A DNA stretch of 64,000 bases, taken from assembly GCA_022775985.1 (NCBI GenBank), contig JALFIM010000039.1, forward strand, positions 43,407 through 107,406, in the 5' to 3' direction. Both the position numbers and the translations under genes were made by a program. The DNA is from Prevotella sp. (lineage in GTDB: Bacteria > Bacteroidota > Bacteroidia > Bacteroidales > Bacteroidaceae). Below are positions 57,804 through 62,435 of the stretch, in pieces; positions within the stretch are counted from its first letter, which is position 1, and each line of letters starts with the position of its first letter. The notes below the pieces were generated by a model, which saw nothing but the letters and a program-made list of their open reading frames with translations, did no database searches and had not been told where the DNA came from.

Positions 57804-59282
57804 TCAAAGTATGTCCATCGGAAAAATGATATACCTGTTGTTACAGTAATACTTCAGAGCATCATCTATCACCATGAACGCCACGGGATAGGCGGCACCG
57901 TATTTCTTGCAGGCCTCGCTGATGGCCTTGAACAAATCTGGTTCGTAGCCGTGATGGAAAAGGCTGCGCCAAAACTCTAACTGGTCCTTGAAAGTCATGT
58001 CCTGAAGGATGCGCAAAAGCGGACACGCCTTCTTCTTCAGCACTTTGTCCGCCACAAAATAGGATATAGACATATCATCGGCTGTATGCTCCAAGTCGGG
58101 GTCTATGCCGCCCTTGCACAGGTTCACATACTTGCGCAGGAACACTTCGTCGGGCACCACGCCAAGCAACTGTTCAAAAGCCAACATCTGCTCGCAGTTC
58201 TCAAGATACATGTGCAAGTCGCTGTGCTTGTCAAGCCTGTAACGGTAGGTTTCCGTCAATTCGGTCCAAGTAGAGGGGAAGGCGTTGAAGAATCTCATCT
58301 GTGCCGCACTGTCCGCCGGATGGGCGCGAAGGTAATGATAGGCATCGTCAAGATCGTACACATCGAATATGCCAGACTGTCGGCCAAGCACGCTGCGGTT
58401 GTCTGGAAACACCTTAATGGACTTGGCGTACTTTCCTGACAGGGGCATTACCATTGCCTCCTTGCACTCCATACGATAGTCATCATGCAAGCGGTATGAC
58501 AGGAAAACGCCTTTTTTGACCACGCTGTCACGGTTCTGCGCATAAGTGCTGTGGCTTTCACGTACCCGCACCCGCATTTCTGTCCACACATCCCTTTCGC
58601 CCTGCCTTGCTGCCACACTGTCAGAGAACATGTAGCGCATGTCTTCGGCAGATATGCCCCAACCTAATTGGTCACTGTACCAGAAACGGTCTGTGTATAA
58701 AGTGATAATCGAAGGCACCATGTTGCGCTCTACGGCTACGAGATGGCGGGCCTTGATGCGGCCGTCGGGCGAATAGACCAGGAGAAACACCTCGTTCACA
58801 CCCTTGCCGAATGGCAGGAGGCAGGAGGGGTCCTCACGGTAGACAAAGCACACCCTATCGCCGTTGTCAAGACGCACCTTGCCGCCGTAGCGATAGCGGA
58901 GGCCAAGGGCCGACTCGTCATCGAATCCGCGCCACAGGAACTGAGGCCCGTAGCAAGCTGGTATCTCACGGTGGGTGTTGCTCACGTTTCCGTCGCTACG
59001 AGAACACATGTAAGCATTTTCGGCATTGACATATTCTTTCACCCGTGCTTTTTCATCTCTGCTCAAGTGTGGCGCACGTTTCAAGGAGTCCAACTCAACA
59101 GTGTATAATACATACTTCCAGTTCTTTATTTCATGGAAGCCAGAAAGATATGCAGCGAAAGCGGTGCTGTCTACACTTGCCTCCACACTTGCACAGCAAT
59201 GCGCATGCGGACGGCAATGCGCCGACAATACCGCAAGCGACATGCAGAGCCACACCAAATGAAGTAACATTCCTTTTTTCAT
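57804..59282 (-). CDS. Secreted protein of unknown function, last gene of the LanC-like operon
   Basis: Signal peptide MKKGMLLHLVWLCMSLAVLSAHC; start overlaps upstream ORF by 4 bp (59279-59282). Confidence 0.8.
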   Translation of the reverse strand: MKKGMLLHLVWLCMSLAVLSAHCRPHAHCCASVEASVDSTAFAAYLSGFHEIKNWKYVLYTVELDSLKRAPHLSRDEKARVKEYVNAENAYMCSRSDGNVSNTHREIPACYGPQFLWRGFDDESALGLRYRYGGKVRLDNGDRVCFVYREDPSCLLPFGKGVNEVFLLVYSPDGRIKARHLVAVERNMVPSIITLYTDRFWYSDQLGWGISAEDMRYMFSDSVAARQGERDVWTEMRVRVRESHSTYAQNRDSVVKKGVFLSYRLHDDYRMECKEAMVMPLSGKYAKSIKVFPDNRSVLGRQSGIFDVYDLDDAYHYLRAHPADSAAQMRFFNAFPSTWTELTETYRYRLDKHSDLHMYLENCEQMLAFEQLLGVVPDEVFLRKYVNLCKGGIDPDLEHTADDMSISYFVADKVLKKKACPLLRILQDMTFKDQLEFWRSLFHHGYEPDLFKAISEACKKYGAAYPVAFMVIDDALKYYCNNRYIIFPMDIL

Positions 59283-60091
59283 CTTTCCTTTATTACATAT
59301 AGCTTATACAGCTTTCCCAAGGGATATTTATTATTGTTGTTCGGATTTTGCGGATCATAATAAATCAAATAGCCGTCATCGCTCACTCCGTTGACCACAA
59401 TTTCATGGTAAACAAGATTCTTTATTTCTTCTACCGTTCCCATCATATTCCAACTGCCGTTTTCCTTAAATCTTTTGTCTCCTTTTTTGTATAGTTTCCC
59501 TACCTCACTTCCTTTATACACATTTTCAAGCTCTTTCCCAAATTTCGGCAAGACAAAGTTCAGAAAATCAACCATATAAGATATGGCAAGCCCATCGGCC
59601 ACAGCAGGGCTGACATCCTTTTCAGCCACACCTTTTATATTCTTCAGCCAGTCACCGTAAAGGTCGCTCACACCTATGGAGTTGACTCCCTTCAGATAAC
59701 GGGCAATGCATCTATAAGCACAATCCTTTTGGTTATCCATTGCTACCTTGCTACCTTCATACTTGGCTTCATCATAAGAGTCGTTTTTCACTTCCTCTAT
59801 GTCGAAGTCCCAGTCGGAATAGTAGATGCCTGACGTACCAGACGGCGTGCTCTGTGCCTCGACAAGCCCAAGATTCTCAACGAAGCCACCGCTCCATGAG
59901 CCGTCCACGCACATTTTTTCATACTCGGCTACGGTGTAGGGTATGGACTCGCTCCCTTTCTCCACCGCAACGCCGTTAGGACACCCACCATCAATGCCAC
60001 CACCCTCAAGGCAGCCATTGCCCTCAAGGCTGAAAGAAAGCTCTCCTTGCTGTTCTTTGCTGTTGTCAACAGTTAATTTTCTTTTATCCAT
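59279..60091 (-). CDS. C39/papain-like cysteine peptidase-like protein with Gly-Gly leader-like N-terminus
   Basis: N-term MDKRKLTVDNSKEQQGELSFSLEGNGCLEGGGIDGGCPNG; candidate catalytic regions NQKDCAYRCIARYLKG (Cys) and YHEIVVNGVSDDGYLIYYDPQNP (His, Asp). Confidence 0.6.
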   Translation of the reverse strand: MDKRKLTVDNSKEQQGELSFSLEGNGCLEGGGIDGGCPNGVAVEKGSESIPYTVAEYEKMCVDGSWSGGFVENLGLVEAQSTPSGTSGIYYSDWDFDIEEVKNDSYDEAKYEGSKVAMDNQKDCAYRCIARYLKGVNSIGVSDLYGDWLKNIKGVAEKDVSPAVADGLAISYMVDFLNFVLPKFGKELENVYKGSEVGKLYKKGDKRFKENGSWNMMGTVEEIKNLVYHEIVVNGVSDDGYLIYYDPQNPNNNNKYPLGKLYKLYVIKER

Positions 60092-60095
60092 AATC

Positions 60096-60941
60096 TTATG
60101 ATTTTTGATTAAACATGTTCAGTCCCAACAAGGCAAACTCATTGTTCACCGTGTTTACGTAATGTATGAAATGCGCAGCCACGTATTCCACACGGGTTGC
60201 AAGAACCGCAGAAAAAGCAACCTTCGGCTCCAGACCTATTATTGGAAAAAGAAGGTCATCGACACTGCAACCATAAAGAGCAGCCATGTCGTTTGCCACT
60301 GCTTTTTCACTTGTCCTACAGGATAATGGCATGTGTTCAGGCGTAAAATTCACTTCAGGACATTTTATCCTGTCGCCATACCTACAACGAATCACATCGA
60401 ATACGAAACGGAAGGACTCAAACAACGACGCATCTATCGGAGTGAGGCCATCGTCACAGGCACGTATATATTCCTTACTCACCAATGGCAATATTTCGTC
60501 TGTCCACGATTGCAGCAGAGCACCGTCGAAAGACACTTCCTGACGGGCCAACATATAAAGCCCAGACGTGAAACGTCTGCTGGCATATTTACGGTCAAGA
60601 GCCCAACAGGCCCTGACATTGCCAAGCACCTTCCTGTCGACATCGCCCAACAGAGAGCATGTACTACCTTTGACAAACCCCTTACGGATGAGGTAACACA
60701 ATCCCATGCCTATGCCTGAAAAGCCGTCAAGTATGCCGTATGGCAACCGTGTGTTGTCGCCTTCAAGTACTTCGTACAGCAAGCGGTTGGCCGTCTCGGT
60801 GTAAAACGGGGCTGACATATATCGGCCGTATTCATGCAAGAACAGGCAAAGCCCAGTCTTACCATCCATAAGCCCCACGTGTCTTGTAGTGCAAAGGTTT
60901 GCCACAATAGTATTGGCCATTATCCGCAACATATTTCTCAT
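60096..60941 (-). CDS. LanC-like family protein (Bacteroidales type), no visible zinc-ligand motif
   Basis: GLMDGKTGLCLFLHEYGRYMSAPFYTETANRLLYEV, GILDGFSGIGMGLCYLIRKGFVKG, DVDRKV: hallmark of LanC-like N-terminal repeats. Confidence 0.72.
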   Translation of the reverse strand: MRNMLRIMANTIVANLCTTRHVGLMDGKTGLCLFLHEYGRYMSAPFYTETANRLLYEVLEGDNTRLPYGILDGFSGIGMGLCYLIRKGFVKGSTCSLLGDVDRKVLGNVRACWALDRKYASRRFTSGLYMLARQEVSFDGALLQSWTDEILPLVSKEYIRACDDGLTPIDASLFESFRFVFDVIRCRYGDRIKCPEVNFTPEHMPLSCRTSEKAVANDMAALYGCSVDDLLFPIIGLEPKVAFSAVLATRVEYVAAHFIHYVNTVNNEFALLGLNMFNQKS

Positions 60942-61915
60942 GACTGTCTTTCTTTTATTGCAATTCTGAATTTGTCTATCAGTTCCGGCACATGCCTGTC
61001 GAAACAGAACGACATGCGATGCCGCATGACATTGGCTTGCAGACCTGCCATCAGGATCTTATCATGGAGCATGTCCGACAGATGGTCTATGTCATGAAAC
61101 TGCATGCCTATGCCCAAATTTCTCACACAACGCTCCACCGCCACTATGTGTCCCGTGTTGTCATACTGTATCACGGGCAACGCCGCAGCCATGTAGGTGC
61201 TCAAACGGGCCGGGATGTTCAGGTCGTCCCACGACGCATCATAAAGGTCTCCATAGTTAGCACTTCTTATGCAGTGAAGCCAGGCAGCGTCATACTTCGA
61301 GAACTCTTCCGTCCATCTGTCGGGGGAACAATGGCTGTGTATGTGGAAATAGCCAGAATAAGCCTCTGCAAAATATGCAAACAACTTCTCCTTGGCCGCA
61401 AAGAAATTCTCAAGATACAGGTGCAGATGTATCCTGTTCCTGACCAAAGCCTTGACAGACGTTTCCCTTATGCCAATAAGTCGTCCTGCACACACCGTAT
61501 GCACCTCGCCGTCAGCCTCCGACAACTTGGGCGAGAACGTGTCCTTGAAATAGTCTTTCTTGGGCATATCGCCATCCATAATCATAGTAAGCACAGGTTT
61601 TGACGGCAAAAACAGCTCAAACCACTGCCTTACCGTGTCGTTAAGGAATATCCTCAACGACGCATGGCGATAAAGCCATGCCAGTTCCTGCCAGTTGCCC
61701 ATAGACACGGCAAGCTGGGGCCCTTCCTTGTAATGCCAAGCAAAAGGTATGTCGGGCAGACGGCGAACTACATCATACACCCATCCAATGGCTCCCCAGT
61801 TGAGTAAGCCGTACACGATGTCGGGACGTATACTTGCAACCGCCTCCTCCCAATTGTCATGCGGAATATCCTCCACATTACCGAAAGGCAGCGGGCCTAC
61901 GGTAGAAAAGCTCAA
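60938..61915 (-). CDS. GT4-like glycosyltransferase half; likely C-terminal part of a split GT2-GT4 protein
   Basis: SFSTVGPLPFGNVEDIPHDNWEEAVASIRPDIVYGLLNWGAIGWVYDVV ... WDDLNIPARLSTYMAAALPVIQYDN; only a TTG start, inside the previous ORF. Confidence 0.75.
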   Translation of the reverse strand: MSFSTVGPLPFGNVEDIPHDNWEEAVASIRPDIVYGLLNWGAIGWVYDVVRRLPDIPFAWHYKEGPQLAVSMGNWQELAWLYRHASLRIFLNDTVRQWFELFLPSKPVLTMIMDGDMPKKDYFKDTFSPKLSEADGEVHTVCAGRLIGIRETSVKALVRNRIHLHLYLENFFAAKEKLFAYFAEAYSGYFHIHSHCSPDRWTEEFSKYDAAWLHCIRSANYGDLYDASWDDLNIPARLSTYMAAALPVIQYDNTGHIVAVERCVRNLGIGMQFHDIDHLSDMLHDKILMAGLQANVMRHRMSFCFDRHVPELIDKFRIAIKERQS

Positions 61916-62435
61916 GTTGGGGGAAGAAGTCCTCGCTCACCCATTCGTCCCTCTCCACCCATCTCTCGTCTACACGCCGATGGGCTACCTGTACAAGCTG
62001 AAGCCAGAAACCCGGCCTGTTGCTTGTCGACTCTACATCATTGTCGCCGTGCAATGAATCGCACCTACCATACCTGATACCTGAAAAAGCCAACACCGCG
62101 TTTTCATTCTCCATGAATACAGATGCCATGGCGTCCAGATGGCCGGCATAATAGAAGTCGTCTGATGGAAGATATGCCACATATCCGTATCTGGCCATCT
62201 GCAAGCCACGGTTCACGGCATACCCAAGTCCATGGTTTTCCAGCAGACGAACATATCTTATCCTCGTGTCATGCAGAAACTCTGCCACAACAGTTTCCGT
62301 CTCGTCTGTGCTTCCATCGTCAATCACGATAAGTTCCCATCTCTCATAAGTCTGGCGAAGCAGACTTCTTATAGCCCGGCAAATGAAGCCGCACTGGTTG
62401 TAAGTGGGCATTATTACTGAAAAGCGTATGTCCAT
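61878..62435 (-). CDS. GT2 glycosyltransferase half; likely N-terminal part of a split GT2-GT4 protein
   Basis: FSVIMPTYNQCGFICRAIRSLLRQTYERWELIVIDDGSTDET, YLPSDDFYY, FWLQLVQVAHRRVDERWVERDEWVSEDFF then an abrupt end. Confidence 0.85.
   Translation of the reverse strand: MDIRFSVIMPTYNQCGFICRAIRSLLRQTYERWELIVIDDGSTDETETVVAEFLHDTRIRYVRLLENHGLGYAVNRGLQMARYGYVAYLPSDDFYYAGHLDAMASVFMENENAVLAFSGIRYGRCDSLHGDNDVESTSNRPGFWLQLVQVAHRRVDERWVERDEWVSEDFFPQLELFYRRPAAFR

Follow-up and report, generated by a model that had tools for sequence, protein, structure and literature searches.

A probable member of a Bacteroidales polymorphic toxin-immunity family, with an exported partner, in a Prevotella genome

We analyzed a 64,000-nucleotide window of a Prevotella sp. 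contig (JALFIM010000039.1), in which the target gene is the third of four tightly spaced minus-strand genes: a glycosyltransferase (in two pieces), a LanC-like protein, the target and a 492-residue protein (Table 1). The glycosyltransferase and LanC-like genes overlap by 4 nt, the LanC-like gene is separated from the target by a 4-nt gap, and the target overlaps the downstream gene by 4 nt. The reading frame and sequence features given for the target in a preliminary description were borne out, since the N-terminal sequence and the two C-terminal stretches cited there all occur in the protein. Its five cysteines lie at positions 27, 37, 61, 124 and 128. The tight operon and the recurrence of residues 44–80 in dozens of Bacteroidales proteins argue that this is no chance frame. 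Nothing in Pfam or NCBIfam matched the protein above cut-off, no peptidase match was obtained in Pfam, and PADLOC gave no match.

Table 1. Features of the target gene and its operon in the window.
Feature	Position	Strand	Basis
Toxin-like protein, 270 aa (target gene)	59279..60091	-	ORF; module also present in other Bacteroidales proteins
Degenerate double-glycine leader-like region, residues 1-31 (KRKLT start, GG 30-31)	59999..60091	-	Length and GG position as in relatives' canonical leaders
Conserved module, residues 44-80, KGxxxxPYTxxEYxxMxxxGxWxGGYVxxxGYV-type	59852..59962	-	Conservation in 43 proteins; AlphaFold; Bfe1 N-terminus match for other members
C-terminal domain, residues 110-270, putative C39/papain-like cysteine peptidase	59282..59764	-	DCxxxC, His229, Asp246; weak profile similarity; low G+C
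Cys124, candidate nucleophile	59720..59722	-	Alignment with relatives
His229, sole His of the protein	59405..59407	-	Position in protein
Asp246 (YYDP)	59354..59356	-	YYDP also in C39-like relatives
Exported 492-aa candidate immunity protein	57804..59282	-	Signal-peptide-like start; C-terminal-half homology to exported proteins of other module loci
LanC-like protein without zinc ligands	60096..60941	-	PF05147 E=0.0015 (under curated cut-off); G126 LanC-like E=7e-27
Glycosyltransferase, second half of two-domain enzyme	60938..61915	-	52% identity to residues 297-620 of 627-aa G126 enzyme
Glycosyltransferase family 2, first half, truncated, other frame	61878..62435	-	PF00535 E=1.6e-31

Residues 44–80 of the target protein (KGSESIPYTVAEYEKMCVDGSWSGGFVENLGLV) constitute a conserved module that is present in about 50 distinct Bacteroidales proteins; the preliminary description, which treated the N-terminus as a leader, had missed it. 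A search for relatives within the genus returned one member, on a contig of Hoylesella timonensis S9-PR14 (G029), whose similarity is confined to residues 42–96. Using that stretch as the query opened the family, beginning with G393, G391, G126 and G559, and the module query matched 38 of 301 family-level genomes at E ≤0.05, the weakest of these matches probably being noise. Module-bearing records come from Hoylesella/Prevotella-like organisms, Bacteroides, Phocaeicola, Paraprevotella, Alistipes and Proteiniphilum, with 19 named loci that include ones in Bacteroides faecichinchillae JCM 17102 and B. bouchesdurhonensis as well as in the latter four genera. The distribution of module proteins is patchy, and our searches of viral contigs and plasmids did not return the module. 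Across 43 members, W66, G69 and V71 (window numbering) never change, and E56 and G68 seldom do. AlphaFold modelled the module with high confidence (pLDDT 88–97) as a helix (residues 54–63) and a hairpin (68–71/75–78), which makes it a folded unit, not an unstructured leader. It is present in duplicate or triplicate in several proteins.

Tandem arrays of module proteins with differing C-termini can be seen at L085 (five proteins), L083, L084, L088 and L092, often with an exported partner and a sugar enzyme for each. At L086 (6275–8500), an ORF of Branch-type glycosyltransferase/methyltransferase sequence is continuous in frame with a module protein at a common YDANPYT, perhaps through recombination or as an assembly chimera.

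The C-termini behind the module vary, apparently as interchangeable parts that would cleave cell wall or protein, and include C39-like (C39_2), NlpC/P60, CHAP, Amidase_5, JAB-like and unmatched types, some with HExxH. For the C39-like type, L088 matched in Pfam at E=0.0029 and the alignment of relatives matched PDB 9JDD/9JG8 at E about 1e-21. We clustered the C-termini and the immediate downstream genes independently by BLAST, which left 41 usable pairs. A downstream family was common to 26 of 49 comparisons between members of the same C-terminal type, against a mean of 2.7 and a maximum of 14 in 20000 shuffles; the comparisons are partly interdependent and the sample is small. The agreement extends across genera and, in the case of two C-terminal types, across leader-bearing and leaderless members. 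An export-type hydrophobic N-terminus was observed in 40 of 42 downstream proteins versus 3 of 50 module proteins, and the exported partners look as immunity proteins for periplasm-acting toxins would. The C-terminal half of the partner in the window is homologous to exported proteins at five other module loci, but this partner does not belong to the partner family of the C39-like type.

At the family level, a constant module is thus combined with variable C-termini and with a partner family that tracks the C-terminal type, the latter being a signature of polymorphic toxin-immunity systems. We regard this family-level claim as well supported by the sequence comparisons, and the target gene as probably a member of such an antibacterial toxin-immunity family of the Bacteroidales, with an exported immunity partner. 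A secreted peptidase with a housekeeping or nutrient-acquiring role and a periplasmic partner, as opposed to a weapon, would be in keeping with how common cell-envelope hydrolases are and with adjoining glycan enzymes that could indicate a polysaccharide locus. The patchy distribution, the tandem arrays in which one module carries different C-termini, the JAB-like toxin domain matches and the pairwise co-segregation with exported partners make it very unlikely. The available part of an account of polymorphic toxin systems (PMC3482391) describes the same combination of a constant N-terminal part, swappable C-terminal enzymes and adjacent immunity genes, and lists C39-like and JAB toxins among its examples. 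The WxGGYV module, double-glycine leaders and glycosyltransferase/LanC-like neighbours were not found there as a trafficking type, and the partners of the module family, unlike those in the part available, are exported.

For one C-terminal type (YYTFPDYI...; L090, L091, L095 and L134), the partners are large exported proteins resembling erythromycin esterases (PF05139), which would be unusual candidate immunity proteins. At L097 (7818–9384, in G126), the locus closest to that of the window, the module protein has a hydrophobic C-terminus and is followed by two small paralogous membrane proteins, an arrangement that suggests a pore-former with membrane immunity.

Searches with the full-length target protein and with its C-terminal domain returned no close relative of this domain in the genome, viral, phage and plasmid collections; weak matches within the genus (L003–L006) proved to be large unrelated secreted proteins. 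A C39/papain-type catalytic triad had been proposed previously, and Cys124, His229 and Asp246 do occur in C39-like order and spacing. The His-to-Asp distance of 17 is that of the H. timonensis relative, Cys124 lies within DCAYRC, and YYDP is common to the window domain and the C39-like relatives. Beyond order and spacing the proposal fared less well, with no profile match above cut-off and a score of only 7.2 bits against the profile of the C39-like relatives, which 3 of 2000 shuffles reached. In two AlphaFold models, confidence over the domain was too low to place the triad residues, and a Foldseek search with the low-confidence model returned no hit with an E-value under 0.5. BLAST of the window domain against that of L102 was not significant, and hhalign, run with shallow profiles, likewise gave no significant match between the C39-like relatives and the C39 domains of exporters. 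The G+C content falls from 51.7% over residues 1–80 to 41.0% behind them (C-terminal domain with linker), as expected for an exchanged toxin part. On balance, we favour a putative C39/papain-like cysteine peptidase as the identity of this domain.

The same domain holds a local STING-like stretch at residues 160–193 (59513–59614; VADGLAISYMVDFLNFVLPKF), of the form VADGLAxSYxxxxLxFVLP and confined to one predicted helix, with matches to STING_LBD in Pfam (E=0.011) and to PDB STING chains (E=0.006). A STING-like cyclic-nucleotide sensor is nevertheless extremely improbable: the match covers only about 35–50 residues, the rest of the C-terminus is not long enough to hold the domain, the operon contains neither an effector domain nor a cyclase, and the context fits the toxin family. 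We rejected this identity for the target protein, as the match is local.

A double-glycine leader had also been proposed for the N-terminus. Canonical leaders of this kind (MKKLTKKSLDELA..P.IEE..QRTYVGG) are found just before the module in L090, L092, L094, L095, L100 and L125, and most leader-type loci encode a C39-peptidase ABC exporter together with HlyD and TolC, beside which a LanC-like gene recurs. The window protein retains the KRKLT start, the leader length and the position of the GG (30–31, compared with 29–31 in the relatives), here within a Gly-rich stretch, but it has lost the inner hydrophobic positions of a canonical leader. Peptidase_C39 (PF03412) was matched in 13 of the 20 genomes in which we looked for it, and neither in the window assembly (G000, 92% complete) nor in six other genomes with leaderless members. 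A fragment of an ABC ATPase located where a contig of the window assembly ends (L115) did score against the exporter, but it spans just 97 residues from the generic ATPase portion and was judged not to be a C39 exporter. Since its leader is degenerate, no C39 exporter was found in the assembly and the glycosyltransferase is truncated and frameshifted, the window copy is probably orphaned; presumably, it either is no longer a C39 substrate or takes another route. The idea of a double-glycine-leader substrate that is itself a peptidase therefore finds its place in the family, which combines such leaders, C39 exporters and peptidase domains including C39-like ones, but not cleanly in the window copy with its degenerate leader.

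A sugar enzyme, from one of several families, is encoded upstream of the module gene in 24 of 48 members, and a LanC-like gene in three. Compared with its 627-residue homologue in G126, the window glycosyltransferase is missing about 109 residues, and a change of frame coincides with the break (61870–61930), which points to a decayed gene or an assembly fault. The Cys and Cys-His zinc ligands of LanC are absent from the window LanC-like protein, which has no CHG or WCxG motif, and from its relatives; this agrees with reports of Bacteroidales LanC-like proteins without zinc ligands (PMC10352776). The target operon also encodes no dehydratase or radical SAM enzyme. Without zinc ligands or a dehydratase, lanthionine chemistry is unlikely, also at the N-terminal Cys, Ser and Thr residues earlier suggested as modification sites.

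These neighbours also bear on whether the protein could be a RiPP precursor, whose Cys/Ser-rich N-terminal part would be modified by the LanC-like protein and the glycosyltransferase before its removal and export, with the C-terminal domain acting as a modifying or processing peptidase. Both kinds of neighbour recur, the leaders of the relatives resemble the TIGR04149 type (L095, E=0.018), and the RiPP-like clusters described from Bacteroidales likewise place zinc-less LanC-like proteins beside double-glycine-leader precursors (PMC10352776). Eight of the nine clusters in that report, however, include a radical SAM enzyme, which is missing from the target operon along with the dehydratase and the zinc ligands, and the precursor here is multidomain. 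After the leader, most members have a folded module and an enzyme-like domain, and the two N-terminal cysteines are not conserved in relatives. We consider a RiPP precursor quite unlikely; the preliminary notion of a leader-bearing modified peptide was right to point to leaders, which occur in relatives, but is better replaced by the polymorphic toxin-immunity reading.

Among known systems, the Bfe1 family (NCBIfam NF053698) gave a match to the module itself. Positions 8–40 of its model were matched in register by 4 of 10 module-only queries (E 0.0012–0.011, far under the cut-off), and 5 of 43 full module proteins matched, the best at 18 bits against a cut-off of 315 and over the module part only; no match was obtained with the module of the window protein. 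Bfe1 is an antibacterial T6SS effector of Bacteroides fragilis that kills when placed in the Bacteroides periplasm (PMC6692515). The likeness to module proteins is weak and ends after the first ~40 residues of Bfe1. If the module loaded proteins onto the Bacteroidales T6SS tube, as for Bfe1, this would suit those members that have no leader and whose genomes gave no C39 exporter. Leader-type members, however, adjoin C39 exporters instead, and VipB was not matched in 14 genomes nor TssC in the window assembly, both being weak tests with no Bacteroidales positive control. A T6SS effector is, in our assessment, an unlikely identity for the target protein.

The Cdz proteins of Caulobacter are similarly antibacterial, leave the cell through a type I system that includes an ABC exporter and have an adjacent immunity gene, but they are glycine-zipper proteins of 84–86 residues and not modular enzymes (PMC5380434). 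Cpe1 is an interbacterial papain-like toxin with an immunity protein and a fold closest to C39 exporter peptidases (PMC12136450), and is by analogy a precedent for a C39-related interbacterial toxin. It differs in cutting GyrB/ParE in the cytosol and in its T6SS/CDI carriers (PMC12136450), whereas the candidate immunity protein in the window is exported.

According to the toxin-immunity reading, the target protein would have two parts: the conserved module, some 35 residues long, and behind it a C-terminal toxin domain that can be swapped. In the window protein, this domain would most likely be a C39/papain-like cysteine peptidase that works outside the cytoplasm. Immunity would come from the product of the downstream gene that overlaps the target gene, and the predicted export of that product points to an extracytoplasmic target. 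In the leader-type relatives, the neighbouring C39 ABC exporter, HlyD and TolC would cleave the leader and secrete the protein; modification or chaperoning of the precursor may fall to the glycosyltransferases encoded upstream and to the LanC-like protein that lacks zinc ligands. We infer toxicity, immunity, the peptidase activity of the window protein and the delivery route from this arrangement, and likewise the role of the sugar enzymes in modifying the precursor. A wider generalization, to which we give somewhat less than an even chance, is that the WxGGYV module could be a delivery or sugar-modification handle of modular enzyme weapons across C39 ABC export, the T6SS (Bfe1) and a third route (leaderless members with no C39 exporter), each toxin having a dedicated upstream sugar enzyme and a downstream exported immunity protein.

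We found no description of the module family in the open-access literature, to which it is apparently new. If our reading is true, it adds a toxin-immunity family to the gut Bacteroidales, with the module as a sequence handle for more effector-immunity pairs. It would also tie C39 ABC export to enzyme toxins instead of small peptides, and would pose the testable question of why sugar enzymes and zinc-less LanC-like proteins accompany these toxins.
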